The notes beneath the pieces were generated by a model, which was given only the letters and a program-made list of their open reading frames with translations, was not told the DNA's origin and did no database searches. A stretch of DNA of 20,946 bases from positions 1 to 20,946 of the IMG/VR virus record IMGVR_UViG_3300027503_000071; one strand, 5' to 3'. The stretch's first letter is position 1, and every line of letters starts with the position of its first letter. Shown here in pieces: positions 1 through 20,946 of the stretch. Both the position numbers and the translations under genes were made by a program. This DNA is from a virus.

Positions 1-1456
1 CATAAAGATTTTTATCAGTAATAAAATACTCGCTGTTTAAACATTCATCTCTAAAATTTAAAATATCTGTTTGAAAGTATTTTTCTAACACAGGATCAAA
101 ATTTTTATAATTGTCGTCGTTAATACACGGAACAATTAACAATCTTCCTTTTAAATGGTTTGATGATAATTGTATTAGTCGTGAAAGACACAAGTAATAA
201 AAATAATACATAAACATAGAATTATTAAAATCCGCAATTGGTCCTTGATACTTTTGAAATTGTTTTGGAAAATTTTCTCTCATATGCATCAGAACCGAAA
301 CTGGTTCTTTATGTGAAAAATATATATTTCTTTCGTATGATGTTAATCCAACAATTATTAAATCTTTTTCAGTAATATCTCCGTTGGCAAAATCTTTTTC
401 AATTTGCCAAACTATATTTGCTAATGAATTTCCTGCTTTAGCTCTATTATCAATTAACATCGATAATCTATTTGCTAAGATTGCAGGCCAAGCCATATTT
501 CTTTGTTTTTCATTAATGGTTGCAATTAAATTTTTATCAAAATTAACTTTAAGATCAAACCATTCTCTAATGTTTCGTTTTTTAATTTCTTCCGCATCGG
601 CTCGATATAAAGTATCTAAAAATTCATCTCCTGCTGTATAACTACATCCATAAGCAACAATCCTTGATATTAATTTTTTATCAAATTTAAATTTAGATTG
701 TTTACTTGCGGTATCTTTATACTTTCTCCAATTTTCAAACATAATACTCAATTGATTAATAGATTTTTTTAAATCTGTAATAACCATTGTGGGTCTTACC
801 TTACATTGATGTATTGTCTTTAATATTTTAATTTTTATTCCACAATATTCAAAAAGTTTTTCCCAAAGTGTTTCAGCCTTGAACCAAGTTTCTGGAGGAT
901 TTGTTGTAAAAAATGTAGATAAAAACTCACTGCTTTTATTAAGAATTATTTCTCTTGCCTTATTGTTTAAAATAATAACATGCGGAATTAATAAATTTTT
1001 ATAATGACAATAAACCTGAGGAGTTTCTAAATCTACTCCAATAAGAAAAGAATTTAAATCTCCTTCTAATATTAAATCTGTTGTTATTGAAACAACAACA
1101 TCATTTTTAGTTTGTTTTAATCCTTCGATGAATGTATATAAGTGTTGAATATAATAGACTTTATAGGTATCTATTTCCCCATATGCATTTTGAAACCATT
1201 CAGAAATTTGATATTTTGAATATACAGCAGTGACCTCTGGATTCAATTGTTCTGTAATATAATTTAAAGCATATCGAAAATCTTTGTCAGCATCAAACAT
1301 GTAGGAAGATCGTAATGCCATTTTTGCATGAGAATCTTGTACGATGTCTAATAAACTAAAAACATTTCGACACTCAGTATTTTTAAAAAATTCTTTTTGT
1401 CGAGAACATGCCTCAGCATATCTTAATTGTCCGGAGTATAATACATCAACTTTCAT
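1..1456 (-). CDS. Glycosyltransferase-like / SGNH-hydrolase-like fusion protein (3' end beyond window)
   Basis: An open frame of 485 codons starts at ATG 1456 and runs off the left edge, so the C-terminus is missing. Residues 1-230 open with VLYSGQLR, and around 103-130 there is QHLYTFIEG followed by DVVVSITTDL. This resembles WavE-type or related glycosyltransferases, which start with an SGQ-R motif and carry a later R/T-D-L strand (moderate support). Residues 265-450 look like the SGNH hydrolase fold common in phages: GCSYTAGDE at 270-278 (block I, candidate nucleophile Ser272), AWPAILANRL at 322-331, AGNS at 341-344 (block II) and a strand ending GLTSYER at 370-376. The catalytic Asp/His block would normally lie near the C-terminus and may be outside the window. 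SGNH enzymes remove or transfer acyl groups on sugars, so a glycan-modifying role is plausible. The start overlaps the upstream radical SAM gene by 11 bases, with no strong Shine-Dalgarno, suggesting translational coupling. Confidence 0.8.
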   Translation of the reverse strand, partial: MKVDVLYSGQLRYAEACSRQKEFFKNTECRNVFSLLDIVQDSHAKMALRSSYMFDADKDFRYALNYITEQLNPEVTAVYSKYQISEWFQNAYGEIDTYKVYYIQHLYTFIEGLKQTKNDVVVSITTDLILEGDLNSFLIGVDLETPQVYCHYKNLLIPHVIILNNKAREIILNKSSEFLSTFFTTNPPETWFKAETLWEKLFEYCGIKIKILKTIHQCKVRPTMVITDLKKSINQLSIMFENWRKYKDTASKQSKFKFDKKLISRIVAYGCSYTAGDEFLDTLYRADAEEIKKRNIREWFDLKVNFDKNLIATINEKQRNMAWPAILANRLSMLIDNRAKAGNSLANIVWQIEKDFANGDITEKDLIIVGLTSYERNIYFSHKEPVSVLMHMRENFPKQFQKYQGPIADFNNSMFMYYFYYLCLSRLIQLSSNHLKGRLLIVPCINDDNYKNFDPVLEKYFQTDILNFRDECLNSEYFITDKNLY

Positions 1457-2711
1457 TTGGTTTTTGTGATTCTAAATATCTTTTTTTTCTATTTTTTAAA
1501 ACAATTTCATGTGTAAAAATTTTATCTATAGATGAAAATGTTCCGCAGGTTTTAGAACAATAAACAAGTTTTCCTTCTTTTGTTGTTTTATCCCATGTGT
1601 CTGCATATAATCTATCTAAATGCTCCGCTGATAAAATTTCTTCTAAAGAATGGTTATTTAAATTAAGTTTTTCTGGTCCATAATTATTTAAATTACGAAC
1701 AAGTTGCATACTTGGAGGATCAGAATAAATTCCATTTAAATGTGTTCCAATATAACAACAAGGCATAACGTTACCAGCACTATCGACAAAAATTTCTTTT
1801 CCACGTTTATACCCATCATCAATATGCGATTTACACTTAATATTACACGAGTCGTGTTCGTCATATTTAGAACTTGCTATTATATCAACAATTTCTTCTG
1901 TTCTTTTATAATAAGAATTTTTAAATTCTGAATTTTCTTTCATCTTATTATAATCATCTTTTGAAAAAGGATAAAATTTTAAAGGTTGGATTCCTGTTGG
2001 ATTTTCTAAATTTCTATTTTTGGGATTTGTAGGAGCTTCAATATAGTAATCTAATTGTCCTTCTTTATTAAGAGCTACCATATATATTAATTCTGTTCCA
2101 TTATCAACGCCTAATGCTTTTTTAGGAACAAATTCAGTAAATCCCATATCCTCAGATAATTTTTTTGCAGTATCTAGTTGATGCTCGTTGTGTTTAAAAA
2201 TTAAAAAGTCCCAAAGAGCTCTCCCACCCGCATCAATAAATGCTTGTGCATTTGCTATAAGTTTATCCCATTTAACGTTTCTTCGATAAATGTGATTTGT
2301 ATCTTCTAACCCGTCAATGGAAAAAGTAAGCCTATATTGATTTGATGCTTTTCCTTTTGCAAAAAGATTACCTAATTTTGCCCACCATTCAGGATTTCTC
2401 ATGCCGCCATTTGTATGCACAGCTATGACCCCAGGACTATTATTAATGATGTACTCGCATATTTCATAAAAATCTTTAGCCATACACGGATCTCCATGAA
2501 CGCCACAGAATAACCAAAGTTTAACTCTATCTAATACTTCTTGAGGGAACCATTTTTTAAAATCTTCTAAAGAAATTTGACTTAAATTTAAATCTGGTCT
2601 AATTAACTCTGAAGAATTATAAAATCTTACGCACATAGGACAAGCAGCATTACAATGATTTGTAAGTTCAATATGTACTTGTATTAATTCATTAAAATTC
2701 CAAAAACTCAT
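1446..2711 (-). CDS. Radical SAM protein with SPASM-like C-terminal domain
   Basis: The 421-aa product has the radical SAM signature CNAACPMC (Cys20, Cys24, Cys27; CX3CX2C) on a strand right after an HIELTNHC-type lead. This signature holds the 4Fe-4S cluster that cleaves S-adenosylmethionine. A GDP at 73-75 takes the place of the usual GGEP motif, and TFSIDG at 129-134 is the typical later strand. The C-terminal third carries further cysteines: Cys289, Cys293, the CC pair 318-319 after the FVDSAGNVMP strand, and Cys385/Cys389. That layout matches SPASM domains, which bind auxiliary Fe-S clusters in enzymes acting on peptides and some other substrates. The gene lies 2 bases after the upstream radical SAM gene and overlaps the next by 11 bases. 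It belongs to a different subfamily from the three radical SAM genes before it, which carry their extra cysteines at the N-terminus. The substrate is unknown. Confidence 0.88.
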   Translation of the reverse strand: MSFWNFNELIQVHIELTNHCNAACPMCVRFYNSSELIRPDLNLSQISLEDFKKWFPQEVLDRVKLWLFCGVHGDPCMAKDFYEICEYIINNSPGVIAVHTNGGMRNPEWWAKLGNLFAKGKASNQYRLTFSIDGLEDTNHIYRRNVKWDKLIANAQAFIDAGGRALWDFLIFKHNEHQLDTAKKLSEDMGFTEFVPKKALGVDNGTELIYMVALNKEGQLDYYIEAPTNPKNRNLENPTGIQPLKFYPFSKDDYNKMKENSEFKNSYYKRTEEIVDIIASSKYDEHDSCNIKCKSHIDDGYKRGKEIFVDSAGNVMPCCYIGTHLNGIYSDPPSMQLVRNLNNYGPEKLNLNNHSLEEILSAEHLDRLYADTWDKTTKEGKLVYCSKTCGTFSSIDKIFTHEIVLKNRKKRYLESQKPNES

Positions 2712-2713
2712 TT

Positions 2714-3937
2714 TTACATACCTATAATTTTTGAATAGTCAGGAAAAACTTTATTAAATTCTTGTCCTCGATATTGATCGTGTTTTTTTGTTACTTCCTT
2801 TAGAGAAGTAAAACTTGAAGGCTCGTAGTGTCCGTTTTTTATAAAATTTAAAATGCCATCTAGATACATCCATGCTTGATTCTGCGTCTTAGGCACAACA
2901 TCATTAATATGTTGAATAATTTTTTCTTTAATATCTGTTGGGAGAGTTGAAATATTATAATGTCGGGGTCCGTGAACTAAATTTAGATAAAAACCAAAAC
3001 TAGAAAAATGATCGTAATAAAAATTTATTGTTTTAGGTAAGTCATATATGTTCAGTGTACTTAAAGTAATGCACCAACTAATTTTAAGAGTTTTTAAACT
3101 ATTAGCAAGCTCTTTTGCCTTATTCATATTTTCTAATACTTCATTCCATTTTGCTGGAAATCTCATATATTCAAATTGTTCTTCTATACCGTCAATACTA
3201 AAAGATAAATTAACACCTTTAAAATGTTTAAACATAGAAATTTTATCTTCTGGCCAAGTTGTACCGTTAGTATTATAATGCAATTCAATATCTTTAGCAT
3301 ATCCTTTGTCAACACATATACTTAGAATTTCCCACATCTTTTTACTTAAAAACGGTTCGCCGCCATAAAAATCAAATTGTCTAATATTGACTAAATTATT
3401 TTTTAAATCTTCCCAGAAAACACTTTCGTCGTCGTAGCTCTGATGAAACACTCTCATCATTTCTGCATATTCTTTATAAGAAATTTTTGAATGATGCAGA
3501 TCGTAATCTTCTTTCATCCATGTTGAACTAATCTGAGGAGCACAGGTTCTACACTTTATGTTACAATTATTTCCTAGATTTAATTCAAACTTAGCAAGAC
3601 CGGTAAATGGTTTTTCTCCCCTTTCTATCGATCTAAAATATATTTCATTATCTCGAAGACGCTTACTTTTACGTCCAGCATTTTCTTCTTCCCAACAATT
3701 TTTGCAGGCATAATTTCTTATTCCGTTTTCTAAATCTTTTCGAATTTGTATTGCTACAGGATTATTAAAATTTTGTTCGATAGACATTTTGTCTACAAAA
3801 TAAATTGGTTGTAATTCTTTCATTCTGTTGTATTCTTCAATAATCATACAACACATTTTAGAACTTCCGTTGTTATTTGCGCTCATTCCATGGAACGCAT
3901 TAACACACCAAGAATTTTTATTTGTTTCTGTTATCAT
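2714..3937 (-). CDS. Radical SAM protein with N-terminal twitch-like Cys region (canonical CC type)
   Basis: The 407-aa product carries CNIKCRTC (Cys125, Cys129, Cys132), the radical SAM cluster motif, followed by APQISSTW. YGGEP at 191-195 is the SAM-binding GGEP motif, and FSIDG follows later. Before the core lies a Cys-rich N-terminal region: Cys11, a CC pair at 29-30, then CKNCWEEENAG with Cys78 and Cys81. This order (C, CC, CxxCW-E) is what I know from the 'twitch domain-containing radical SAM' proteins found in marine phages and bacteria, where it probably holds an auxiliary Fe-S cluster. The end of the protein (FNKVFPDYSKI) matches the conserved tail of the two upstream paralogs (F-E-VFPEY-NF). 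The start overlaps the upstream gene by 20 bases and has no clear Shine-Dalgarno, so translation is probably coupled. The reaction is unknown for this family. Confidence 0.88.
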   Translation of the reverse strand: MITETNKNSWCVNAFHGMSANNNGSSKMCCMIIEEYNRMKELQPIYFVDKMSIEQNFNNPVAIQIRKDLENGIRNYACKNCWEEENAGRKSKRLRDNEIYFRSIERGEKPFTGLAKFELNLGNNCNIKCRTCAPQISSTWMKEDYDLHHSKISYKEYAEMMRVFHQSYDDESVFWEDLKNNLVNIRQFDFYGGEPFLSKKMWEILSICVDKGYAKDIELHYNTNGTTWPEDKISMFKHFKGVNLSFSIDGIEEQFEYMRFPAKWNEVLENMNKAKELANSLKTLKISWCITLSTLNIYDLPKTINFYYDHFSSFGFYLNLVHGPRHYNISTLPTDIKEKIIQHINDVVPKTQNQAWMYLDGILNFIKNGHYEPSSFTSLKEVTKKHDQYRGQEFNKVFPDYSKIIGM

Positions 3938-5285
3938 AATTTTCGTAAATGTTTTTACATAAGTTATAAAAGTTACTATACTCTGGAAAAACCTCTAATA
4001 AATTAGTTCCTAATCTTCTATCATTTTCAGAAAAGAAACTATAAAAATCTCTTCTTCCTTGAAGAATTTTTAAATCGCTAACTGGATTTTCTTTCATGTA
4101 ATCTGTTACACGTTTAAACTTTTCGTATTCGACGCCTGTAAACCAATCCATATTATCTTCAATAAATTTTAAAGTGTCTTCTTGATGTTTAATAAATTCT
4201 TCAGGCAAAATATTAATCATCCAGTGTGGCGGTTCTTTTAAATATGGTGTATCAAAAGATACAGCTTCCTTGCCGTATTCTTTTCTCCATTCGATAACTT
4301 TGTGTAATAACTTTTGAAAATTAGTTACACATAATACGTTATAAGTACACATTAGATTTACCGTTGCACCGGCTTTAATTACTTCTTTCATATTGCGTTC
4401 CCAGTGATCACATTTTAATCCTGTACGCATATATTCTGCTTGTTCTCCCCAGCTATCAATGCTAGTAAAGAAACTAAACTTTCTAATTTTTTTCTGTTCT
4501 ATTAAACTTTTTACTCGAGCTATTAATCGATCAACTCGATCAAAAGTTACTCCAAGATTACTATTAAGTGTAATCTCTAAATGGGGAGCTGGCTCATCTT
4601 CTAGTAAATCAAAAAACTGCATAGCACCAGGATTCATTAATGGTTCACCGCCTGTAATACGTAAAGTATGTAAATCATTACGTAAACTTGGCCACCACTT
4701 CCAGAATGCTTCGATGTAAGGGTTTTCATCTTTAGGCCCATAATATGTTCCATTTTTTAAAAACTCAATACCATATTGATTATAAGTTAAATCATAATTA
4801 CCGTGTTTCTTGATCTCTTCCATCCACATAGTACTAGCCTGTGGGCAACAATAACCACAGCGATAGTTGCATCCGTTACCAAAACTTACTTCTAGATAGC
4901 GTGGGTTTACCGGAGCGTCCCATGGTAATTCTGCTAATTTTTCTATGTAAGGTTCTGAAAAATCGCTAGAACTATGAATCATTCGATCACTTATATGCTC
5001 TCCCGGCAAGTCTTCAATATTCCAACAATAATAACATTCTTCTGGTCTTTCACCTTCTAACATTTTTTTACGTTGTTGTTTTTTCCATTTAGTATTGTGT
5101 AAAGCACTTGCATCTATTTTAATTTCATCTAATGGAATGTGATGAGGACGAGGATGGTAACAACTATGGTTATCACCGGTGTGAAGATACAAAGTTTGAT
5201 GCAACCATTTCATTGCACAAAAACCTGGACCTATTTTGTTTAAACGATCTCTAACACCTTTAATATAATTTACTCTATCATCCAT
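3918..5285 (-). CDS. Radical SAM protein with N-terminal twitch-like region (CYHPR type), copy 2
   Basis: The 455-aa product is a close paralog of the 472-aa gene just upstream and more distant from the 407-aa gene downstream. Radical SAM motif: CNYRCGYC (Cys139, Cys143, Cys146), then CPQASTMW. SAM-binding motif: TGGEP at 211-215. The N-terminal region has FCAMKW (Cys23), SCYHPRPH (Cys42), a conserved block IPLDEIKIDASALHNTKW and ECYYCWNIED (Cys84, Cys87). Thus the CC pair of the family is reduced to a single Cys followed by YHPR, leaving four cysteines plus histidines as possible ligands for an extra Fe-S cluster. The C-terminus has SENDRRLGTNLLEVFPEY, the family's usual end. Start and upstream stop share one base (TAATG), a strong sign of coupled translation. 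Substrate unknown; the neighbouring glycosyltransferases hint at a sugar or glycoprotein pathway (inference). Confidence 0.9.
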   Translation of the reverse strand: MDDRVNYIKGVRDRLNKIGPGFCAMKWLHQTLYLHTGDNHSCYHPRPHHIPLDEIKIDASALHNTKWKKQQRKKMLEGERPEECYYCWNIEDLPGEHISDRMIHSSSDFSEPYIEKLAELPWDAPVNPRYLEVSFGNGCNYRCGYCCPQASTMWMEEIKKHGNYDLTYNQYGIEFLKNGTYYGPKDENPYIEAFWKWWPSLRNDLHTLRITGGEPLMNPGAMQFFDLLEDEPAPHLEITLNSNLGVTFDRVDRLIARVKSLIEQKKIRKFSFFTSIDSWGEQAEYMRTGLKCDHWERNMKEVIKAGATVNLMCTYNVLCVTNFQKLLHKVIEWRKEYGKEAVSFDTPYLKEPPHWMINILPEEFIKHQEDTLKFIEDNMDWFTGVEYEKFKRVTDYMKENPVSDLKILQGRRDFYSFFSENDRRLGTNLLEVFPEYSNFYNLCKNIYENYDNRNK

Positions 5286-6703
5286 TATTCTTTACACCTA
5301 TTCCAAAAATCTGTTAGTTCAGGAAATGTATTTAAAAAATTTGTATTTCGTCTTCTATCGTGTTCTGAGAAAAATTCATAAAAATTTTTCATAGCTTTAT
5401 CTTTGTCAAATCCTGTATCTGATTCAATCCAATCAATTAATCTTCGAACTTTACTCACTTCAAAGTCGCTAAATCCCATAAACTGATTACCACGACCTTC
5501 TTTATTTTCTAACATATATTTTAATGCCAATTTAAGTTCTGTTACCATTTCTGGCATTACTTTGGGATTTAAAAAATCTGGATCATGGAGCGGAGGGATA
5601 TCAAACCAAATTAGTTGTCTACGTTTACTAAATTTTCTTCTCAATTTAATAATGTTCTGCAAATATTCAACAATACGAGTATAACTCAAAGCATTAAATG
5701 TTATGATAAAAGTAAGTGAATGTTTCTGACTATTTGCAAGATAGTCAGTGACGTTTGCCTTTAACATTTCAAAATCCATTCCATTACGTATATATTCTGC
5801 TTGCTTACCCCAACTATCTAAACTACAAAATAACATAAAATGATCAACAGCCTCTGCATCTGTAATTTCTTTTAAACTAGACATAAATTTTGACCATTGG
5901 TCTTTTGGAGGACAGCAATTACTTGTAATACTTAAATGAAGATCACTTTTAGGATTATTTTTTACATATTCAAACATCCTAAAGGTATTTTTATCCATAA
6001 GCGGTTCTCCGCCAGTCATGCGGAATGTTTGTAAGGTTGGATAAATTTCTGGAAGCCATTCCCAGAATGCTTTTACATAAGGATTTTCAGGACTATTGTC
6101 GATTGGTGATTCGTTTTGAATCCATAGAATATCATTATGCACACGGTCAGTTAAAAGGTACGGGCCTTCTTTTTTAATTTCATCATACCATGCTGTGCTA
6201 AGATGAGGGCTACAATAACTACATTTAAAATTACATGCTTGATTAAAATTTACTTCAACATATCTTGGTTTAGCATTTCCCTCGTAACCAAGCTCTAATG
6301 CTTCATCAATTAACCCTGGTTCCCATACATCTTTGCTTCGATATGCTCGATCGCTTAGTTGGTTTCCGCTATCTTCAATTTGCCAACAAAATTCGCATTC
6401 TTTAGGTCGTATACCCTGTAACATCAATGCACGTTGAGATTTTTTATATTTTGTATTATGCAATGCACTAACATCGATCTTTACTTCATCTAATGGAATT
6501 GCATGACTTCTAGGATGATAACAACTATGTGTTCTTCCAGACGGAATGTGTATACTAACATTAAACCATTTGGCCAAACAAAAACTTGGACTTACTTCGT
6601 TTAATTCCTTATGAACAAATTCTGCATCTAATAGATATCGAGACTGATATTTTCCATCAATCTTTCTAAGTTCATTACCTTTTATATTTCTATTAAATTC
6701 CAT
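5285..6703 (-). CDS. Radical SAM protein with N-terminal twitch-like region (CYHPR type), copy 1
   Basis: The 472-aa product has CNFKCSYC (Cys157, Cys161, Cys164) followed by SPHLSTAW, the radical SAM cluster site, and MTGGEP ending at 234 as the SAM contact. The N-terminal region carries FCLAKW (Cys42), SCYHPRSH (Cys61), IPLDEVKIDVSALHNTKY and ECEFCWQIED (Cys103, Cys106), almost motif for motif the same as the gene downstream. The C-terminal SEHDRRRNTNFLNTFPEL is the shared family end. The pair clearly arose by duplication; a first stretch of about 20 residues is extra here. The gene overlaps the preceding repeat-bearing glycosyltransferase by 11 bases, and its start codon has only a weak Shine-Dalgarno. 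The function is unknown: the family is recognisable, but I know of no established reaction for its phage members. Confidence 0.9.
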   Translation of the reverse strand: MEFNRNIKGNELRKIDGKYQSRYLLDAEFVHKELNEVSPSFCLAKWFNVSIHIPSGRTHSCYHPRSHAIPLDEVKIDVSALHNTKYKKSQRALMLQGIRPKECEFCWQIEDSGNQLSDRAYRSKDVWEPGLIDEALELGYEGNAKPRYVEVNFNQACNFKCSYCSPHLSTAWYDEIKKEGPYLLTDRVHNDILWIQNESPIDNSPENPYVKAFWEWLPEIYPTLQTFRMTGGEPLMDKNTFRMFEYVKNNPKSDLHLSITSNCCPPKDQWSKFMSSLKEITDAEAVDHFMLFCSLDSWGKQAEYIRNGMDFEMLKANVTDYLANSQKHSLTFIITFNALSYTRIVEYLQNIIKLRRKFSKRRQLIWFDIPPLHDPDFLNPKVMPEMVTELKLALKYMLENKEGRGNQFMGFSDFEVSKVRRLIDWIESDTGFDKDKAMKNFYEFFSEHDRRRNTNFLNTFPELTDFWNRCKE

Positions 6704-8960
6704 ATTGTGTTTTTAACCAATCAAAATCATTAATTTTTGCAAGGGCTTCTGGATTGTTTTTATTTTCTTCTCCGTACTTACGTCCTGCAATTGCACCGCT
6801 AAGTGCATCATTAGCAAATTTGTCTTTTGCTACAGAACACCATATGTCTAATCTCTTTTGTGTTTCCTCATCAACTTGTCCAGCAATTGTTCTACTAGAA
6901 AGTTTTACACATTCTCTAAATGCCGATTTCCAAGTATTAAAAGGATCTGTATTGAATGCAGATATATTACTGACTTCCGGCATTGCTTTAAATTTTTTAC
7001 TAATCGATGTTGTCATGTCGGCTGTATTTACATCCATATCTAATGTTAATTTTCTTGGTAATAGTTTTACTCCACCATAACCATATATTAAATCATTTAT
7101 TGGATTTTTACTTCTCCACACATGAACAACATCTTTTTCGTATCGCGTTGCCTGATGATTAAAATTAAAATCATCTATTATATGTGCATCGGCATCAACA
7201 ACCCAGAACATGTCTGTTGTGGCAAGTTCAGCTGCCTTTATATGCGCTTGATGAATACCTTTAACACCATGTACTCGTTTAGCTCTTGGAAATTTGTTAA
7301 TTAGTTTATTATAATTTTCTTCAGCATTAGGTTCGTTATAACTTACAAATATTATATCATAGTCTTTATGCTTAGAAACAACTTGTTCATATTGTTTTTT
7401 ATTAATTAAAAACCTAAAATCAATTTCTTTAGGACTAACTGGCGTTGATGTAGACATTAACATCAATCCGTTATATGTTAATTCGTTTCTAAATTTATGC
7501 TGAAATACATGATTGATATTTCTATCATAATCATATACGCCATTATTAGGTTCAAAATATAAATTAAAAATTTCAGAATCAATAATTTCTATTTCAGGCC
7601 AAATTGCCCAGAATAAAGGTTGAGATTCGGTGTCTATAATTTGTTTGTAATCGTCATAAGTATCAATATTGTAAACAGGATACGCATAACGACTTGCTAC
7701 AAAATTATGTTCTTTTTTATCAATTAAAAATCTTCTATTAAATTCTTTTTTAGATATGATTTTTTCTTTAGAAAATAATACTACACCGTTTAGAAAAGAT
7801 TCTTTGTCGTTACATAAATTTTTAAAAACATGATTTTCTTTTCTATCATAATCAAATGCCCCACTATTTGGATCAAAATACAAATCAAATAGTTTATCAT
7901 CTAATATTTTAATTTCTGGCCATACACACCAAAACATATTTTGAGATTCAGTTTTACATATATCTAAATATTGCTCGTAAGATGTGATTGTATATATAGG
8001 ATATTGAAATTTACTAGCGATTATATTATATTCTTTTTTATCAGTAGGATATTGTTTATCAAACTCTTCTTGTGTTAAAGGTTTAAATTTGCTGCATAAC
8101 AAAATTCCGCTTAGGTAAGATTCGTCGTAATTACACAAATTTTTAAAAACATGATTTTCTCTTCTGTCATAGGTATTGTGATGGCTAAAATATAAATCAA
8201 AAATTTCATTGTTAATAATTTTTACCTCAGGCCACACAATCCAAAACATATCGTCTGTAATTTGTTTATACTCATCAAATGTTTTAGGAGAATAGATGTT
8301 GTATTGTTTTGGAATACTAGCAACAATATCTATTTCTTTTTTTTCTGCAAAAAATCTATGATAAAATTCTCTCTTAGAAACTTTTACATTTTTTGGAAAT
8401 AAGCAAATGCCGTCAAAAAATTCTCCATTTTTAAAAATATGAACAATATTAGAATTATGCTTAGGAACTTTATAATTAAATTTAAAATCTTCTTTGACAT
8501 TTACATCAGGCCAAATTGCCCAAAACATGTCTGTACTTGATTGTTCAACAGCGTTTAGATAATCATCGTAAGTTGTAATATTAAATTTATCATATCCTAG
8601 TGGAATACTAGCAACAATATCTATTTCTTTTTTATCTGTAAAAAACCGATTATCAAATTCTCTTTGAGAAATTGTAACTGACTTAGGAAATAAACAAACT
8701 CCGTCGTAATGATCACTATTTTTAAATACATGAACATACATATCGTCCCACTGGGTAGCTCTGTATGTGTTTAAATTAAGATTGTCTAATAAGGTAAGGT
8801 CGTCCCACACAACCCAAAACATTTTAGTAAATGCTTGTTTTTTTAATTGATCAAAAGAATTTATGTTTTCAAATTTTCTAGCTGTGGGATATTTTGACTT
8901 GACTGAGTTCCAGTTATAGTCGTTAATGGAATTTTTTGAAACATAAAAAATATCATACAT
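6693..8960 (-). CDS. Multi-repeat glycosyltransferase-like protein: five degenerate half-domains plus one intact GT-A-like domain
   Basis: The 755-aa product ends in a domain (about 533-755) closely related to the gene immediately upstream: YDIIFVSYNEPNAEENYNKL, KRVHGVKGIHQAH, then MFWVVDADAH with a DAD motif at 589-591. DAD fits the DxD site that binds metal and nucleotide sugar in GT-A glycosyltransferases. Before it stand five tandem degenerate copies of the MFWVVDAD segment, with the MFW (or LFW) at residues 47, 145, 238, 342 and 449. Each runs through a HVFKN-type strand and a KREF--RF---KKE-DIVAS block. In all five, DAD is replaced by WDD, WPD or WPE, so they probably do not bind donor sugar in the usual way. 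They may be binding or scaffold domains. Residues 1-46 resemble the start of the intact domain. The gene overlaps both neighbours, by 8 bases upstream and 11 downstream. The nucleotide-sugar role is inferred from the motif. Confidence 0.82.
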   Translation of the reverse strand: MYDIFYVSKNSINDYNWNSVKSKYPTARKFENINSFDQLKKQAFTKMFWVVWDDLTLLDNLNLNTYRATQWDDMYVHVFKNSDHYDGVCLFPKSVTISQREFDNRFFTDKKEIDIVASIPLGYDKFNITTYDDYLNAVEQSSTDMFWAIWPDVNVKEDFKFNYKVPKHNSNIVHIFKNGEFFDGICLFPKNVKVSKREFYHRFFAEKKEIDIVASIPKQYNIYSPKTFDEYKQITDDMFWIVWPEVKIINNEIFDLYFSHHNTYDRRENHVFKNLCNYDESYLSGILLCSKFKPLTQEEFDKQYPTDKKEYNIIASKFQYPIYTITSYEQYLDICKTESQNMFWCVWPEIKILDDKLFDLYFDPNSGAFDYDRKENHVFKNLCNDKESFLNGVVLFSKEKIISKKEFNRRFLIDKKEHNFVASRYAYPVYNIDTYDDYKQIIDTESQPLFWAIWPEIEIIDSEIFNLYFEPNNGVYDYDRNINHVFQHKFRNELTYNGLMLMSTSTPVSPKEIDFRFLINKKQYEQVVSKHKDYDIIFVSYNEPNAEENYNKLINKFPRAKRVHGVKGIHQAHIKAAELATTDMFWVVDADAHIIDDFNFNHQATRYEKDVVHVWRSKNPINDLIYGYGGVKLLPRKLTLDMDVNTADMTTSISKKFKAMPEVSNISAFNTDPFNTWKSAFRECVKLSSRTIAGQVDEETQKRLDIWCSVAKDKFANDALSGAIAGRKYGEENKNNPEALAKINDFDWLKTQYGI
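7212..8822 (-). repeat. Five tandem protein-level repeats of about 93-135 codons inside the glycosyltransferase-like gene
   Basis: The repeat starts, marked by the MFW/LFW codons, are at about 8822, 8528, 8249, 7937 and 7616. The sixth, DAD-bearing copy begins at 7211. Copies 1 and 2 form one subfamily (KKEIDIVASIP in both) and copies 3, 4 and 5 another (longer, with NHVF preceded by a YDR stretch). Identity persists in the DNA: a 33-base identical stretch at 8310-8342 and 8601-8633 (291 bases apart, 97 codons), and a 24-base identical stretch at 7816-7839 and 8137-8160 (321 bases apart, 107 codons). The spacings are exact multiples of three, as expected for in-frame duplications. Confidence 0.85.
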
Positions 8961-9864
8961 TTTCGGGCATTCTAAAATAAGTATCGTTTAAATTCATAGT
9001 TTCATTATATAAATCTAGTGTGTACTTGCTTTGGTTAGGATCTAAATAAGGCCAGTGCAAACCTAAACCAACTTTAATTTTTTCACCTAGGTCCTTTGTT
9101 GCATCAACTAATCCTTCACCGTTTACTTCTTCGTAGGGACGTCCATATTGATTCCAGATTCCTCTAAGAATTTCAAAATCTCTAACTTCTATATAATTCC
9201 AGTCTGTGCAATTAGCCATCCATGTTCCTAGTCTAGCACCGTATACAGCATATAGACCGTTTTCTTCGTGAGCGCCTACCGTAGACCACATACGCAGTCT
9301 ATGAATGTTATGCCACCAAATGCGTTCTTGTATTTCAGCCGGAGGAACTTTGACTCCGTCGAGCAACGTCATTTTAACACCTTCACGGAATCCTGCTCTC
9401 CATGCTTGAAATGGACTTCCTGTAATAATGCTATCACTAAAACTTAAAGGAAAGTTTTTGTATCCATCTTCCCAGCAAAAATCAACTTGTCCTCTATCGC
9501 TATCAGAATTTTCATGTGTTTTCATGTTAAGAACAAAATCTTTTTTCCAGATTTTTAAACCACCATTACCATATCGTAGTCCATTGATAACGTTGCGGCC
9601 ACACCATCCATAGACCTGTATCTTTGGATCATCCATTTTTAAATCGAGATTAAAAAATCTTGGATCTACAATATTGTCAGCATCGACGGTAACAAACCAA
9701 TCAGTGTCACTACTTTCTGCTGCGGCTTTATGTGCATGGTCTGAACCTTTAACACCGTGAATACGTTTTGCCCAAGGTACTTTATTACACAGGTCCGCAT
9801 AATGCAAGTCTGCATTAGGTTCATCATAACTTAAAAATACAACATCAAATTCAATAACTTTCAT
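8953..9864 (-). CDS. GT-A-like glycosyltransferase with DAD motif
   Basis: The 303-aa product starts VIEFDVVFLSYDEPNADLHY, then KRIHGVKGSDHAHKAAAE and DWFVTVDADN, with DAD at 61-63. A leading beta strand, a substrate-binding loop and a DxD after a hydrophobic strand suggest a GT-A nucleotide-sugar transferase. YGNGGLKIWKKDF (about 92-105) resembles the acceptor/donor loop seen after DxD in such enzymes. The same blocks, in the same order, recur in the C-terminal domain of the next gene (SYNEPNAEENY, RVHGVKGIHQAH, VVDADA, YGYGGVKLLPR, then an F--W---FRE-VK helix), so the two are paralogs. The start and the upstream stop overlap as ATGA (4 bases); the downstream gene overlaps by 8 bases. Donor sugar and acceptor cannot be told from the sequence. 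Confidence 0.82.
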   Translation of the reverse strand: MKVIEFDVVFLSYDEPNADLHYADLCNKVPWAKRIHGVKGSDHAHKAAAESSDTDWFVTVDADNIVDPRFFNLDLKMDDPKIQVYGWCGRNVINGLRYGNGGLKIWKKDFVLNMKTHENSDSDRGQVDFCWEDGYKNFPLSFSDSIITGSPFQAWRAGFREGVKMTLLDGVKVPPAEIQERIWWHNIHRLRMWSTVGAHEENGLYAVYGARLGTWMANCTDWNYIEVRDFEILRGIWNQYGRPYEEVNGEGLVDATKDLGEKIKVGLGLHWPYLDPNQSKYTLDLYNETMNLNDTYFRMPENV

Positions 9865-10457
9865 TTTGTCTCGATCACGTATTTGGGGAATAATCTTCTT
9901 GTGTAAACACTAAATCTACCTTCTAAAGGTAAACCGGTTAGTGAAATTTGTTTTTCTGTTAAATCACTGATACTAAATTTTACTATAAATCTAACAATAT
10001 TTGGATCGTTATATTCTGTAATAAAAAAACAAAGCTCGGTACTTCCGTCCCAGTGAATCTTTCTTTTTAATTCTCTATACTTAGGAGAAAGGTCAAAAAC
10101 TAATTTGTCTGTTCCTTCTACATAGGAAACAATTACATCGGGGTCTTCTACATCAGACCATTTTTTATCAACAATCCTATGGAGCACATCGTCTATCTTT
10201 ATAAGACTTCTTATTTCTGCAATTTCAAATTTGCCTGAGCTAATATCAACAAAACACGAATTTAATTTTAATGCGCCTTCATTAATTAATTGTGCTGTTT
10301 CTTGATCAATTTCTACAACATTTTTTTGATCTGTTAGAGCGTGTGACGGATACACTCCTGTTACATCGCCTGTATTAGGATCAAATGCAGCGTAAAATTT
10401 TACTTCTGGCGGTTTATAATTTGCTAACCATTCGTCAAAGTCTATTATTTCTGCCAT
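9861..10457 (-). CDS. Conserved-looking 198-aa protein of unknown function
   Basis: I do not recognise this protein. It starts MAEIIDFDEWLANYKPP, has no signal peptide or membrane segment, and alternates short polar turns with beta-prone stretches (for example KFYAAFDPNTGDVTGVYPSH near the N-terminus, and ELCFFITEYNDPNIVRFIVKF near the C-terminus). No DxD, Cys-rich or nucleotide-binding motif is visible. It sits between two glycosyltransferase genes, overlapping the upstream one by 13 bases and the downstream one by 4 (ATGA). The start has a good Shine-Dalgarno-like stretch (AGGAAGAG) upstream. A virion component or an acceptor/partner for the adjacent transferases are both possible guesses; neither is shown by the sequence. 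Confidence 0.8.
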   Translation of the reverse strand: MAEIIDFDEWLANYKPPEVKFYAAFDPNTGDVTGVYPSHALTDQKNVVEIDQETAQLINEGALKLNSCFVDISSGKFEIAEIRSLIKIDDVLHRIVDKKWSDVEDPDVIVSYVEGTDKLVFDLSPKYRELKRKIHWDGSTELCFFITEYNDPNIVRFIVKFSISDLTEKQISLTGLPLEGRFSVYTRRLFPKYVIETK

Positions 10458-11284
10458 AATTTCTCTTCCTGTATGCTGATAATTTCATCTGTAATCAATT
10501 CTTTTTCAACATAATGAACTACATCATATTGTCTATAATTTCCAATCTTAAGTTCGTTGTTTACATTGAAATAAAATCCTACATGATCTGTGTATCTATC
10601 TGACGGCCATGGCCAATTTTGAATCATTGGCTTCATGTGAACAATTTTAGGAAAATCTAAATCATATGCAATTTGATCAGTAATATCTAAAATTTTAGAT
10701 GATAATGCAAATGCTTCATCGGTTCCAATTACTTTAGGTTTAAAATCTGGAAAGAAAGTATTTTTAAATTCGTTAGGATTTTTTATAATATGTCTTGCTA
10801 AGGTAAAAAATTCTTTTGCTAGTTCGCTATCTTTCTTAAAGAACGTATAGAAAGAATATAAATTAGGCAAATTATTTTTTACAAATGCTTTTCTATAAAA
10901 ATCGCCTGTAATAACTTCTCCTCTGTATGTAAATGCTTTGTTTGCTACATACAATTCTGAGTTATTAATAAAATATTCTGCCCAATGACTAACATCTCTT
11001 GTAAACAACATGTCAGCATCTAAACATATTGTGTTATCCCAAGGTGTTAAATGATCCATCCATGATCGACCGTCCCATCCCTTTTCTTTGTTCCAAGGAA
11101 TTACTTTATCAAATACCCAAGGACTTTTTAATTGTTCTACAGCAGAAACATCATCTGTAACTAAAGCTACATTATTATAACCCCACTTCTGTGTATTTTT
11201 AATACTTAATGCCAAAGAATAGGCTAATTTTGTGTAGTCAATTGTTTCGTGTTTGGCAACTACAATTAAATATCCAAATGTCAT
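10445..11284 (-). CDS. GT8-like glycosyltransferase
   Basis: The 279-aa product begins FGYLIVVAKHETIDYTKLAY, continues with NNVALVTDD (38-45 region) and WDNTICLDADMLFTRDVSHW, where DAD at 89-91 is a DxD site. A start of 'own name, stroll through the day' type (Y-K-A--L--S--, then V-LVTDD, then D-----LDAD) is typical of family 8-like transferases, which move a sugar from a nucleotide donor with retention. Later, GTDEAFALS (about 195-203) matches the family's D-E-AL helix and HMKP (about 225) its metal/phosphate-binding His region. It overlaps the preceding paralog-like gene by 4 bases and the next gene by 13. A GGAG Shine-Dalgarno lies 5 bases before the ATG. The donor and acceptor are unknown. 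Confidence 0.82.
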   Translation of the reverse strand: MTFGYLIVVAKHETIDYTKLAYSLALSIKNTQKWGYNNVALVTDDVSAVEQLKSPWVFDKVIPWNKEKGWDGRSWMDHLTPWDNTICLDADMLFTRDVSHWAEYFINNSELYVANKAFTYRGEVITGDFYRKAFVKNNLPNLYSFYTFFKKDSELAKEFFTLARHIIKNPNEFKNTFFPDFKPKVIGTDEAFALSSKILDITDQIAYDLDFPKIVHMKPMIQNWPWPSDRYTDHVGFYFNVNNELKIGNYRQYDVVHYVEKELITDEIISIQEEKLWQK

Positions 11285-12141
11285 ATTAACTCCAACAATT
11301 TATCTTTATTTCTAACAATGCTTTGTTTATTCATTACATGAACATCGGTATTATTAATAGAACATGCTGTAAATGCTTCTTGATTTAAAGGATCATTTAT
11401 TAGGAAGTATAATTTATTTCCCTTAACATCGGCTAACATATCTTTATCAGTTGTAGTTAATAATGACGGTAAAGCATTTGAAGTATCTGTTGTAAAACCT
11501 TCTAAGAAATGTTTTGCAACGCTGAAAGAAATATCGTTTCTATACTGATGAGGATTAAATCTGTAAATGTCACCGTATTGTTCGTAGTTGTTTCGAATAT
11601 GTTTTACATATTCAAAAAATGTTTTGCTTTCCTCGTTTTTTGTAAAAATGACAGCGGTAGCCCAAAACAAATGAACTCCTGTTTCAGATACATGTTTATC
11701 TAAGAAACCAATTCGATCACCTCTAATATCATTCATAGATTTTGATATTAAAATACTTTCATCAATATCCCAATAATTATTCAGGGCGTTAGAAAAAATC
11801 AAATAATCGCTATCTAGAAGAAGTGTTCTATCATATGGTGTTAGATCCCATACCGATGCTCTATCGGCATTAATGAAAGGAATTGTTTTCGATTCGTTAC
11901 CGTCATTTAAACGTCTTGTGTTCAGAGTTTCTGGACGTGGGGTAGAAATAATGTTTTCAAAAACGTCATTTGCTTTATCCCAAATATTTGAAGTCTTCAT
12001 CCATTCAATTGTAGCATCATCTGTTACTAAAGTAAACGGAATTTCAAGATTCTTTTTTGCAAGGCCACCAGAAATCACTGCCAATAAAGCATAGTCAACT
12101 TCTCTGCTATTATGAGCAAAAATTAGGCCGCCTTTTTTCAT
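11281..12141 (-). CDS. GT8-like glycosyltransferase (DSD motif)
   Basis: The 286-aa product starts GGLIFAHNSREVDYALLAV, with PFTLVTDD near 35-42 and WDLTPYDRTLLLDSDYLIF around 98-116. DSD at 110-112 is a DxD site for metal and nucleotide sugar. The layout (N-terminal strand with Y-L, LVTDD, then TPYD-T--LD-D) is the same as in the downstream 279-aa gene, and both resemble family 8 transferases, though the two are clearly diverged. FWATAVIFTKNEESKTFFEY (about 159-178) is a plausible acceptor-side strand. Its start overlaps the 116-aa gene's stop by 4 bases, and it in turn overlaps the next gene by 4. It is the second gene of the late-promoter-led chain. Whether the two transferases act in sequence on the same glycan is inference. 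Confidence 0.8.
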   Translation of the reverse strand: MKKGGLIFAHNSREVDYALLAVISGGLAKKNLEIPFTLVTDDATIEWMKTSNIWDKANDVFENIISTPRPETLNTRRLNDGNESKTIPFINADRASVWDLTPYDRTLLLDSDYLIFSNALNNYWDIDESILISKSMNDIRGDRIGFLDKHVSETGVHLFWATAVIFTKNEESKTFFEYVKHIRNNYEQYGDIYRFNPHQYRNDISFSVAKHFLEGFTTDTSNALPSLLTTTDKDMLADVKGNKLYFLINDPLNQEAFTACSINNTDVHVMNKQSIVRNKDKLLELI

Positions 12142-12488
12142 AGATCCACCAATGCTTCTACAGAACGAGCTTTTTTAATCACTTCGTATTCTTGATAATA
12201 TTCGTTGGTCGCTGTAAAGTATCTGTCAAAAATTTCATCTTTGAATTTTGACAAATCATTAACTAAAACAGGATTGTCGTTTGCGTCGATAAGAACTACA
12301 TCTGTAGATCTATCTTGATCAATTAAAAATTGAACAAAATTAATTAATTCTCTGTTAATTTTAAAAATACCGCCATTGAATCCAAAAGTTAATTTTGCAT
12401 CAACTTTTTCTTTTAACGCTTTGCGTTGAATGGCTAGAGATTGCTTATAGTTTGAAAACTCTAAGGCTTTTGTTAATAAAGATTCCAT
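12138..12488 (-). CDS. Small conserved-looking protein, first gene of the modification cluster
   Basis: The 116-aa product (MESLLTKALEFSNYKQSLAI...) is largely helical at both ends, with a central TFGFNGGIFKINRELINF strand-turn and a charged stretch around FKDEIFDRYFTATNEYYQEY. No catalytic motif, membrane segment or signal is visible. I recall similar small proteins in marine T4-like phages but cannot assign a function. It is the first gene after the 58-base gap that separates it from the virion-type genes, and is preceded by a late-promoter-like motif and an AGGGAG Shine-Dalgarno 5 bases before the ATG. Its stop overlaps the first glycosyltransferase by 4 bases. Its position might mean it is needed in larger amounts than the enzymes (inference). 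Confidence 0.78.
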   Translation of the reverse strand: MESLLTKALEFSNYKQSLAIQRKALKEKVDAKLTFGFNGGIFKINRELINFVQFLIDQDRSTDVVLIDANDNPVLVNDLSKFKDEIFDRYFTATNEYYQEYEVIKKARSVEALVDL

Positions 12489-12515: not shown

Positions 12516-12523
12516 TATTTATG
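12516..12523 (-). promoter_or_regulatory. T4-late-type promoter candidate (CATAAATA) for the modification cluster
   Basis: The minus strand reads CATAAATA, one mismatch from the T4 late consensus TATAAATA, in the 58-base gap upstream of the 116-aa gene. If initiation follows T4 spacing, transcripts would start near 12510, leaving a leader of about 20 bases with the AGGGAG ribosome site. The same motif type appears in the only two other gaps of comparable nature (13470-13477, 16243-16250). Confidence 0.5.
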
Positions 12524-12546: not shown

Positions 12547-13452
12547 TTATGCTATGGTGCTAGGTGCAGCATAAGCAGGAGAAGGAGCATTAAAACTCTG
12601 AGGTGTTAAATTTGGATATAAAGCTCCGGACGCTCTAACATGGGTTATGGTCCAGGACATTGTTCCGTTAACTGCATCTCCAGGGGGAGGAAATCCGGGA
12701 TCAGTATATCCGTCAATCCATCTAGATCTAAAAGTTATAGATGTTGCGCCGCCTGAATTATTATTACCAATATTACATAATACATCTATTTGCCATCTAT
12801 TAGATGAATATGGAGATGATGATGAAAGTTGATAAAATGTTTGATAAGAATTGGTTAAAGTATAAAAATTAACTGCGGGAGAATTACCCCCAAACACAGC
12901 AGGACTTGCAGATGTTGCAGATAAAGTAGTGTTCCAAGAATTATCTTGTTGTGTAGGAGAAGCACCTTGAGTAAATGCTGAAGTAAATCTTATTTTTCCG
13001 CCAGAATTAAAAAAATATCTTGCTTGATCAGCACTTGTAAATGATATTGTACAGGTACTTGCTACCTCGCCACTAAAAGAAACAGAGTTAGATCTTGATG
13101 TTCCTGCTTCAGTAACATACTGACCTGTTCCTAAATCAAAACGATTTGTTTCTGCTAACGATGCTAATGTGCTATATTGATAATTTGGCTGATCAGCTGC
13201 ATATCTAAGTAATTCGCCTTCGTTAATTGTAGTTATTGTTGGAACTGAACCTGATTGATGCACTATTGCATTAACTACATCAAATCTTAAATTATCCCAT
13301 TGTGTCTTTGTAACAGCATCGCCAGTTGCAACCAACGAAGATTGTAAGGCCTGCCCGTATCCAAGTGTGGCTGACCCGGTAGACATTACTCCAGAAATTT
13401 TATTTCTAATATTGTTATAATCCGGTACGCTAATATAATCATAGGCCGCCAT
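12547..13452 (-). CDS. Virion-type structural protein, tandem paralog B
   Basis: The 301-aa product begins MAAYDYISVPDYNNIRNKIS, has TKTQWDNLRFDVVNAIVHQ near 70-88, ADQARYFFNSGGKIRF near 142-157 and NSYQTFY near 203-209, and ends with a short Ala/Pro-rich tail. The same blocks appear in the same order in the 300-aa gene upstream. Proteins with this DYNNIR / ARYFFNSGG-IR arrangement are known to me as virion structural or tail-fibre-associated proteins of marine T4-like phages. The polar, Ser/Thr/Asn-rich sequence with no membrane segment fits a beta-structured surface protein. A strong GGAGG Shine-Dalgarno (13463-13459) lies 6 bases before the ATG. It is the last virion-type gene before the modification cluster. 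The exact position in the particle is not known. Confidence 0.78.
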   Translation of the reverse strand: MAAYDYISVPDYNNIRNKISGVMSTGSATLGYGQALQSSLVATGDAVTKTQWDNLRFDVVNAIVHQSGSVPTITTINEGELLRYAADQPNYQYSTLASLAETNRFDLGTGQYVTEAGTSRSNSVSFSGEVASTCTISFTSADQARYFFNSGGKIRFTSAFTQGASPTQQDNSWNTTLSATSASPAVFGGNSPAVNFYTLTNSYQTFYQLSSSSPYSSNRWQIDVLCNIGNNNSGGATSITFRSRWIDGYTDPGFPPPGDAVNGTMSWTITHVRASGALYPNLTPQSFNAPSPAYAAPSTIA

Positions 13453-13480: not shown

Positions 13481-14383
13481 TTACGAGCCTGCAATTGCAG
13501 ATATTGAATAACTTGTTGGACTTGTGATTGTAAAAGAACCAGAAGGTAACAGGGTTCCCGAAGCTTTAATTTCTTCGATAGTTAATGTTAATGTTCCGTC
13601 AACACTATCGCCCGGTGGAGGAGGATTTCCAGGACTTGGATCAGTATATGAATCAAGCCAAGTAATTCTAAATGTTAATTGATTAGTTGTTCCGCCAGAA
13701 TTATCAGCAACATTACACTTTACATCAATTGTATATCTATTTGATGCATACGGTGATGACGATGTAGATGTATAGAATGTTTGGTAACTATTTGTCAATT
13801 GATAAAAAGACACTCCGGACGAACTTACTGAAAAATCTCGTGAACCTACTGCGCTAAGTAGGCTAGTCCAGGCAGCATTTTGAGCAGTAGAGGATCCGCC
13901 AGTTCTTGAAGAATATAATCGAATTTTTCCGCCAGAATTAAAAAAGAACCTACACTGGTCAACCGTTCCAAAATCAACAACTACATTTGACGACACGCTA
14001 TTAGCCCATGCCGAGGATCTAGAAACATCCCCTGCTGCTAATGTATGAAATTGTCCTGCTCCAATTGAAAATCTATCAGTTCTTGCTTGTTCAGCAATAG
14101 TATTATACTGATAATTTGGATGATCAGCATCGTAACGTATTGGATCAGTTGTTTGAATTTCTCTAATTGTTGGGAGTGTGCCAGTTTGATGTAATCTAGC
14201 GTTAACAATATCAAATCGAAGATAATCCCACTGAGCTTTGGTTACTTTTTCTTGAACTACTGCTGTGCTAGCAATTACTTGTCCGTACCCGTAAGTTCCG
14301 GCACCGGTACCCATTACCTCAATTATCTTGTCTCGAATATTATTATAATCTGATGCAAGAATCTGTGTTCCAACGCCTGCCAT
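13481..14383 (-). CDS. Virion-type structural protein, tandem paralog A
   Basis: The 300-aa product has ASDYNNIRDKIIEVMGTGAG at the start, TKAQWDYLRFDIVNARLHQ at about 68-86, QCRFFFNSGGKIRLY in the middle, and NSYQTFYTSTSSSPYASNRY later. It is a paralog of the downstream 301-aa gene across its length, including the DHPNYQY and FFNSGGKI blocks; the last block is even identical in DNA over 23 bases (13923-13945 and 12992-13014). Low-complexity Ser/Gly/Pro linkers and lack of membrane segments suit an exposed virion protein. The start has an AAGG Shine-Dalgarno 7 bases before the ATG, which overlaps the end of the upstream tail-fibre gene (9-base gap). Its order after three tail-fibre-like genes suggests tail or fibre association. 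Confidence 0.78.
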   Translation of the reverse strand: MAGVGTQILASDYNNIRDKIIEVMGTGAGTYGYGQVIASTAVVQEKVTKAQWDYLRFDIVNARLHQTGTLPTIREIQTTDPIRYDADHPNYQYNTIAEQARTDRFSIGAGQFHTLAAGDVSRSSAWANSVSSNVVVDFGTVDQCRFFFNSGGKIRLYSSRTGGSSTAQNAAWTSLLSAVGSRDFSVSSSGVSFYQLTNSYQTFYTSTSSSPYASNRYTIDVKCNVADNSGGTTNQLTFRITWLDSYTDPSPGNPPPPGDSVDGTLTLTIEEIKASGTLLPSGSFTITSPTSYSISAIAGS

Positions 14384-20250: not shown

Positions 20251-20946
20251 TTAGAATGCTGGTGGACCAGATCTTATGATATAGTTAATAGTCAAGAACG
20301 GATTCATAATACTAAACGGGGTTGCTAAAGTAGCACTTGTTTTGATACCTCCGGATGTATTAAGATACTGAGCTTGACCAGCTGCTGTTGGTCCTAGTCC
20401 TGAACCAGGAGAAGTTCCCGGAACGACCGCCGAATCAACTCTAACAACAGCAAATTGTCTATCAACTCCAGGCGGTTTTAAATTATGTTCATGTTCAGGC
20501 AGATTTCTAACTTCTAATACGCTTTCAGCATCTCCTGCACCGGCACCTAATGTATCTGCTTCTGTACCTGCAACACGATCAATGTTGCCGCCACCTGCGT
20601 CAATGAAGCCGCCGTTTTCTTCAGGAACGGTGCCATAATTATCCATATTATCTCGACCTAGGGGGAATCTACCACGTAGATCCGGCAATACAAAAGTGTT
20701 TACACCCCTAGTTGGCAAACCATATGTGTTACCAATAGCATCGTATAGTTTACTATATTTTGATTTTTCAACCTCTGATCCGTCACATAATAAAAATCCG
20801 TCTGGAATATCGATGCCTGCGTACGGTAAAATTCCGCCAATTGGAATTCCAAGGTCACCAACAAATACATCCCTTGATTCTTTTATTAGACCTGTACCAG
20901 ATCTAAAAACTAAAACCAAATCGTCTGATTTTGATACATTTGGAAA
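20251..20946 (-). CDS. Phage tail-collar domain protein (5' end beyond window)
   Basis: The frame stays open to the right edge with no ATG (residues FPNVSKSDD precede the first TTG at 20919), so the start is outside the window. About 231 residues are visible. GIPIGGILPYAGIDIPDGFL followed by LCDG and a YSKLYDAIGNTYG helix is the tail-collar fold. LPDLRGRFPLGRDN, a Gly-rich loop and NLPEHEHN complete its usual order. HEH is the HxH type motif that holds metal ions in short-fibre and fibre-tip proteins such as T4 gp12. The end NPFLTINYIIRSG is the family's usual C-terminal strand. It is followed by three fibre-like genes, so a short fibre or fibre-tip role is likely, but the missing N-terminus prevents a precise name. 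Confidence 0.88.
   Translation of the reverse strand, partial: FPNVSKSDDLVLVFRSGTGLIKESRDVFVGDLGIPIGGILPYAGIDIPDGFLLCDGSEVEKSKYSKLYDAIGNTYGLPTRGVNTFVLPDLRGRFPLGRDNMDNYGTVPEENGGFIDAGGGNIDRVAGTEADTLGAGAGDAESVLEVRNLPEHEHNLKPPGVDRQFAVVRVDSAVVPGTSPGSGLGPTAAGQAQYLNTSGGIKTSATLATPFSIMNPFLTINYIIRSGPPAF

Follow-up and report, generated by a model that had tools for sequence, protein, structure and literature searches.

The IMG/VR virus record IMGVR_UViG_3300027503_000071 is a 20,946-base piece of an uncultured aquatic phage, and the whole of it, called the window here, was analysed. Read in the direction of transcription, on the minus strand, it begins with a collar gene (Q) and three fibre-type genes (P, O and N), continues with two Ser/Thr-rich paralogues (M and L), and ends with the cluster that is the subject of this report, K-J-I-H-G-F-E-D-C-B-A. 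These last eleven open reading frames (ORFs) occupy positions 2-12488, with neighbours overlapping or abutting by a few bases, and the sole larger gap is one of 58 bp that precedes K. An earlier reading of the DNA (the original prediction) had described a packed chain of eleven genes directly downstream of tail fibre genes, and both the packing and the position hold. The same arrangement is found, identical, in several further IMG/VR contigs of different datasets, including a 219-kb contig (G001, carrying locus L007), which makes an assembly artefact unlikely.

The first gene of the cluster, K (12138-12488, minus strand, 116 aa), is preceded by the sequence ATAAATA at 12516-12522 on the same strand, 34 nt before its start. 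The overlapping heptamer TAAATAA resembles the core that T4 late promoters have; their full octamer, TATAAATA, does not occur in the window. The motif was spotted by eye before K and only then scored on relatives, with an estimate of the background. Among 97 distinct regions, 75 have TAAATAA within 70 nt upstream of K, mostly at 31-35 nt, where 0.008 would be expected per region. Upstream of the later genes it is almost never seen: not at all for J, I, H, G and A, once each for F and B, and in 8 of 518 cases for the genes of the twitch radical S-adenosylmethionine (SAM) enzymes. This distribution argues that K to A form one transcription unit of late type. The related ATAAATA stands upstream of N as well (29 of 30 distinct homologues), and on the 219-kb contig the motif also precedes the terminase and other genes of the structural blocks. 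Simple scans for sigma-70 promoters and terminators stayed at chance level.

The order of the genes is strongly conserved, as fibres-M-K-J-I-H-G-F-radical SAM. The counts that follow come from the best 80 matches of each scan and thus describe relatives near the queries rather than all phages. With J as the anchor, every one of the 56 loci that extend at least 5 kb downstream holds I, H, G and F; K lies upstream of J, in the order K-J-I-H-G, in 54, a twitch radical SAM gene is present in 53, and the L/M family in 52. The original prediction had named rare co-occurrence in related phages as the finding that would count against it, and these numbers point the other way. When G is used as the anchor, each of the 19 distinct loci that extend 6 kb to either side has F, H, I, J, K and a twitch radical SAM gene. 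Around F, a twitch gene is found in 15 of 19 loci and G, like the trio K, J and I, in 14 of 19, while around the twitch genes themselves F or G lies within reach in 54 of 80 and at least two twitch proteins in 78 of 80. Comparisons of close relatives gave nonsynonymous rates (dN) well under synonymous rates (dS) throughout. The retention of gene order under different anchors, together with this purifying selection, is more than chance would give. Two families of neighbouring genes were also seen repeatedly, one of about 400 aa without a Pfam match (L081, 16477-17634, and relatives; 36 loci) and one of about 200 aa (L224, 6311-6958; 32 loci, and also near the bacterial clusters described below), and these are perhaps further members of the pathway.

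The 3' part of the unit behaves differently from the rest. The number and kind of radical SAM genes, B and A differ among close relatives, and in phages with K to G at 84-96% identity, C and B have been replaced and share 33-36%. Such variation is what would be expected if the region were a loose hot spot for exchangeable enzymes, unrelated to one another and sharing no pathway. That reading is very improbable in view of the fixed K-J-I-H-G-F order, the single promoter-like site, the fusions of radical SAM with glycosyltransferase (GT) domains and of G with F, and the recurrence of the same set in bacteria. We conclude that K to A very probably constitute a real, selected operon of late type that encodes enzymes of glycan type.

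The most conserved member of the operon is G (8953-9864, minus strand), whose window copy is 85-91% identical to 16 diverse representatives and which belongs with F (6693-8960, minus strand) to a single family. Both share an invariant DxD (DAD in the window), a motif N-x-x-N-x-L-x-Y-G-x-G-G-x-K and a motif W-x-x-x-F-R-E, and the DxD is invariant across 37 homologues. Models built with AlphaFold2 (mean predicted local distance difference test, pLDDT, of 88.7 for G and 87.6 for F) were compared with the PDB by Foldseek; G found GT2/GT-A enzymes at E of about 4e-4, a remote level, and the matches of F to GT-A enzymes were likewise remote, so that the donor sugar of neither protein can be called. 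The S-glycosyltransferases SunS and ThuS were among the Foldseek matches. At the level of sequence, F reaches 17.2 bits against PF00535 (GT2), under the cut-off of 23.3, and G has no match; a deep G/F profile showed no detectable relation to any solved structure among PDB sequences. From the predicted fold and the invariant DxD, F and G appear to form an uncatalogued family of GT-A type, much as the original prediction had it when it described two related transferases with a DAD motif, one of them multi-repeat.

The repeats of F deserve separate mention. The window protein has five degenerate GT-like modules of about 105 aa ahead of a C-terminal DAD domain, and all but a few of the non-redundant F-type proteins have lengths within the classes 220-235, 344-359, 439-458, 550-586, 644-669, 755-771, 865-880 and 972-973 aa, that is, 0-7 extra modules in steps of about 105 aa. 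The DAD or DGD lies in the last domain, and in the added modules its place is mostly taken by FW-x-x-W-[DP]-[DEN]. The extra modules may thus be non-catalytic and serve to bind or hold the acceptor.

Between K and G lie J (11281-12141), I (10445-11284) and H (9861-10457), all on the minus strand. Profile comparison shows I and J to be homologues (hhalign probability 96.8%, E=2.4e-10), and alignments show an invariant DxD in each (D89/D91 in I, D110/D112 in J). By profile, J has a weak match to glycogenin-1, a GT8 enzyme (E=0.22), which I does not have, and neither matches PF01501, the GT8 family. The earlier label of two GT8-like transferases is therefore a fair one, short of proven. H, a protein of 198 aa whose place between I and G is constant in this lineage, has the conserved stretches LHR, YNDPN and FS.YT.R.F and no match in Pfam, PHROG or the PDB; G to K as a whole go unnamed in the Pfam and PHROG scans, and profiles of G, I and H against PDB sequences gave nothing useful.

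At the other end of the operon, gene A (2-1456, minus strand) is cut by the window end; its full product is 523 aa long in L005 and in the 219-kb contig. Its C-terminal part carries the two blocks typical of SGNH proteins, block I (GxSxTxGD) as GCSYTAGD inside the window and block V (DxxH) as DDIHAGGH past its end, in L005. A found no GDSL match above cut-off in Pfam and no support in Pfam, NCBIfam or the PDB, where the sole match, to neuropilin, was taken as chance. The SGNH part of the GT/SGNH fusion that had been proposed for A is thus a putative one, suggested by its motifs, and the N-terminal half is left without a type assignment; the GT half, and with it the fifth glycosyltransferase of the set, is not supported, as no family or structure match was found for it.

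The four remaining genes encode radical SAM enzymes. C (2714-3937), D (3918-5285) and E (5285-6703), all on the minus strand, match the N-terminal-twitch family NF033640 (N_Twi_rSAM) over nearly their full length with 307, 309 and 326 bits, where the cut-off is 170, in agreement with the three such enzymes originally predicted. Seven cysteines are invariant in phage and bacterial twitch homologues alike: C11, C29, C78 and C81, in addition to those of the CX3CX2C motif. B (1446-2711, minus strand) is a radical SAM protein by PF04055 (34.2 bits, cut-off 29.5); its proposed SPASM class is less firm, since the C-terminus scores 19 bits against a cut-off of 21.5, and SPASM-like is the better term. 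We know of no reaction assigned to NF033640, and the present operon is set apart within that family by its three paralogues in one unit and by double-length proteins in relatives. The latter are 817-aa head-to-tail fusions of two twitch domains, and were seen in six loci (L044, 14234-16687; L041, L045, L042, L054 and L056).

A second, larger radical SAM island was observed on a related 281-kb contig (G002, which also carries locus L031) at 230176-262544, spanning loci L103-L105. It holds about twelve radical SAM genes together with a 2-oxoglutarate (2OG)-Fe oxygenase, an epimerase, an SGNH-like gene and an amidinotransferase closest to inosamine-phosphate amidinotransferase (E=1.6e-69).

Radical SAM enzymes and glycosyltransferases could also be brought together by the synthesis of a natural product, either a peptide resembling the ribosomally synthesized and post-translationally modified peptides or a small molecule of aminocyclitol type, with the radical SAM proteins acting as peptide maturases or sugar dehydrogenases and the glycosyltransferases decorating the product. 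The SPASM and twitch proteins do match peptide maturases and MoaA weakly in NCBIfam, SunS and ThuS appear in the Foldseek results, and the second island has its inosamine-phosphate-type amidinotransferase. Even so, every maturase-family score is far under its cut-off, no exporter was recognized in the window, and no precursor peptide was apparent among the window ORFs, in which no dedicated search for one was made; K and H are long and poor in cysteine. A natural product is therefore improbable as the output of the operon.

The F/G family is not confined to phages. Large contigs of Bdellovibrionota (L109, L113, L114 and others) carry an F-like gene together with twitch and SPASM radical SAM genes among ordinary chromosomal genes; several of these sets add a G-like gene, F is single-domain, and K, J, I and the fibres are absent. 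In a contig of Oligoflexia (L112) a SPASM radical SAM homologue of B and an F-like domain make up one protein of 635 aa, and in another locus (L108) G and F are fused. Farther afield, actinobacteria have a 230-aa F-like protein between genes of GT4 and GT2 type, and a WOR-3 genome has an F/G homologue beside a gene of GT28 type. The bacterial sets, the fusions and the neighbours in GT operons are a stronger link between radical SAM and GT enzymes, as parts of one glycan-type pathway, than gene order by itself. The third radical SAM type of the Bdellovibrionia cluster (L109, 14480-15640; CNYKCSYCWPYARSD) looks by eye the same as the first radical SAM protein of the second island on the 281-kb phage contig (G002, 230176-231156), a further link between bacteria and phages. 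The K-J-I order was also met in metagenome-assembled genomes (MAGs) binned as Neomarinimicrobiota, Rickettsiales, Gammaproteobacteria, Pacearchaeota and Rhodobacteraceae; these were rejected as cellular occurrences, being mostly accompanied by fibre genes, and the bacterial and archaeal MAG loci with fibre-type genes and K-J-I (L106/L172, L107/L176, L171, L177 and L178) are probably misbinned phage contigs.

The 219-kb contig also allowed the phage to be placed. Its terminase is closest to those of the PA5oct-type Pseudomonas jumbo phages (55% identity), followed by Sinorhizobium phage Phosso (52%) and Agrobacterium phage Atu_ph07 (48%), with T4-type and cyanophage terminases matching at lower rank. 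The phage is of jumbo size and, by the terminase, the one gene compared, the contig with the identical cluster sits nearest the PA5oct-type phages, so that the plain T4-like label given earlier is loose and not supported. On this contig the cluster closes a plus-strand structural block, with A as its last gene before convergent genes on the opposite strand. Sugar genes are present in some number: a GDP-mannose 4,6-dehydratase, a DegT aminotransferase, a cytidylyltransferase-like protein bearing a mannose-6-phosphate isomerase domain, carbamoyltransferases and a further GT8-like protein; a member of the UDP-glucose/GDP-mannose dehydrogenase family is added in 20 related loci.

Other features of the same contig were recorded in passing. 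A single ORF of 4,561 aa (145277-158962) lies shortly before the collar and fibre genes, and a QueE-like radical SAM gene (186504-187367) lies on the opposite strand a few genes past the operon; several related contigs have short radical SAM matches like it, again on the opposite strand. A 7-deazaguanine type of DNA modification was considered and set aside, QueC having been found, weakly, in one of ten contigs and not in the other nine, which may be incomplete.

DNA modification normally acts during replication, whereas the present cluster is of late type and linked to fibres; moreover, its core occurs in bacterial chromosomes, and relatives of F and G reside in ordinary GT operons. The suggestion that the enzymes hypermodify the bases of phage DNA can point to the QueE-like gene just downstream and to the modification of DNA by phage glycosyltransferases (as cited in PMC12619734); it has, in our judgement, the slimmest chance of the readings weighed here.

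A candidate for the acceptor is offered by the genes that lead into the operon. L (12547-13452) and M (13481-14383), on the minus strand between the fibre genes and K, contain 24.6% and 24.7% Ser plus Thr, which puts them at about the 98th percentile of the proteins of the contig. Upstream of them are N (14393-16219, PHROG virion and tail matches), O (16262-18385, PHROG tail fibre matches), P (18406-20235, virion or tail fibre type, again by PHROG) and Q (20251-20946, cut by the window end, with a tail collar domain, PF07484, at 68 bits), all on the minus strand. Either L and M or the fibres encoded upstream could be the acceptor. We favour, at a probability of roughly 0.45, a reading in which the late-expressed genes K to A build and tailor a glycan on the phage's own virion adhesins. 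The idea, put forward from the gene content, of a toolkit that builds and decorates a glycan agrees with the enzymes, the actinobacterial GT operons, the fusion of a radical SAM protein with a GT-type domain and the nucleotide-sugar genes, but must do without a fifth glycosyltransferase.

If the glycan is made in this way, J and I would start and extend it from nucleotide sugars, some of which would be made with help from the phage, and G and F would add further residues, the degenerate modules of F serving as an arm of variable length that holds the acceptor. The radical SAM enzymes would then oxidise, epimerise or otherwise edit C-H positions of the sugar or of the side chain, and A would attach or remove acyl groups. 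A common stem would come from the conserved core, K to G, and a variable ending from the rapidly changing 3' genes (F, C, B and A). In its fullest form the proposal would be of a complete line that glycosylates the phage's own adhesins, with radical SAM enzymes editing glycans or glycosylated side chains on the virion, the conserved stem and rapidly exchanged ending acting like a phage serotype, the repeat number of F setting its reach or the length of the glycan, and a related cellular version present in Bdellovibrionota. This whole is unlikely to be right in every part.

Several points weigh against a virion glycan. Ser/Thr richness is common among fibre-like proteins and only suggestive; the Foldseek template-modelling (TM) scores of G and F, by query length, are about 0.3 or lower, and the top match of G is a nucleotidyltransferase, HddC; Pfam, PHROGs and NCBIfam do not recognize G, I or J and recognize F weakly; and the substrate, the product and the acceptor are all things that we infer. 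The bacterial core of G, F and radical SAM genes, moreover, has neither fibres nor L/M, and can thus do without a virion acceptor. This last point also speaks for the main rival, that the operon serves late in infection to make or edit a glycan of the host envelope, for example against re-adsorption of released virions or against competing phages. The glycosyltransferases of the pelagimyophage host recognition cluster have been read in the same manner (PMC7029224), and the sugar genes of the 219-kb contig are of lipopolysaccharide (LPS) type. The unit opens, however, at a late-type motif, which is late for the exclusion of a second phage, and in the loci anchored on J is linked to the genes for fibres and L/M; nor were a flippase, a polymerase or a lipid-carrier transferase recognized by the Pfam scan of the window. 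Modification of the host surface is on balance unlikely, and a glycan on the virion is preferred.

When B, C and E to K were searched against 50,697 GenBank phage records, E to K turned up no relative at the thresholds used, and C and B had distant matches only, so that cultured isolates have hardly sampled the operon. Genes for glycosyltransferases and radical SAM enzymes next to tail fibres, earlier seen as loose hypervariable cargo, here make up an ordered operon of late type that very many uncultured contigs share. Since it supplies defined proteins, a minimal set and candidates for the acceptor, the target of phage decoration becomes testable.

To our knowledge, radical SAM enzymes have not been implicated in the glycosylation of mycobacteriophage virions. 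The function proposed here would nonetheless be of the same kind, with phage-encoded glycans on virion proteins, the acceptors in the present case being candidates. Glycosylation of mycobacteriophage virions has been reported (Freeman et al. 2023, as cited in PMC12619734). Among solved enzymes of GT-A/GT2 type, SunS, K4CP, B4GALNT1, pp-GalNAc-T and PBCV-1 A064R have the fold and the DxD in common with F and G; no relation in sequence to them was detected, and F differs in the 0-7 degenerate modules placed ahead of its DxD domain.

The original prediction knew of no described phage pathway with this set of genes, a statement that needs to be softened, because two described systems resemble it, although the operon is a better-defined variant. 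One exchangeable cassette groups five of the 11-12 radical SAM genes of Campylobacter phages CP220 and CPt10 with an amidinotransferase (PMC2853527). A protein distantly related to B (27% identity over 44% of B) is encoded by CP220, whereas the GenBank phage searches with C and with E to K found no Campylobacter phage; the second radical SAM island of one related contig likewise holds an amidinotransferase, and a linked GT core was not found in the published description, the text of which does not contain "glycosyl" (PMC2853527). The other is the host recognition cluster of the pelagimyophages, T4-like phages of SAR11, a hypervariable region which lies between VrlC and gp14, is linked to tail fibres, combines several glycosyltransferases, GT8 prominent among them, with added radical SAM cassettes, and was described as non-syntenic and read as modifying the O-chain of the host (PMC7029224). 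Common to both is the joining of tail fibres, glycosyltransferases and radical SAM genes in one region. The present operon is distinguished by its fixed K-J-I-H-G-F core, its own promoter-like site, its jumbo lineage, nearest PA5oct by terminase, and its F/G family; as far as could be checked, the fixed core with its promoter-like site, the F/G family with its stepwise modules, and the chromosomal counterpart are new.

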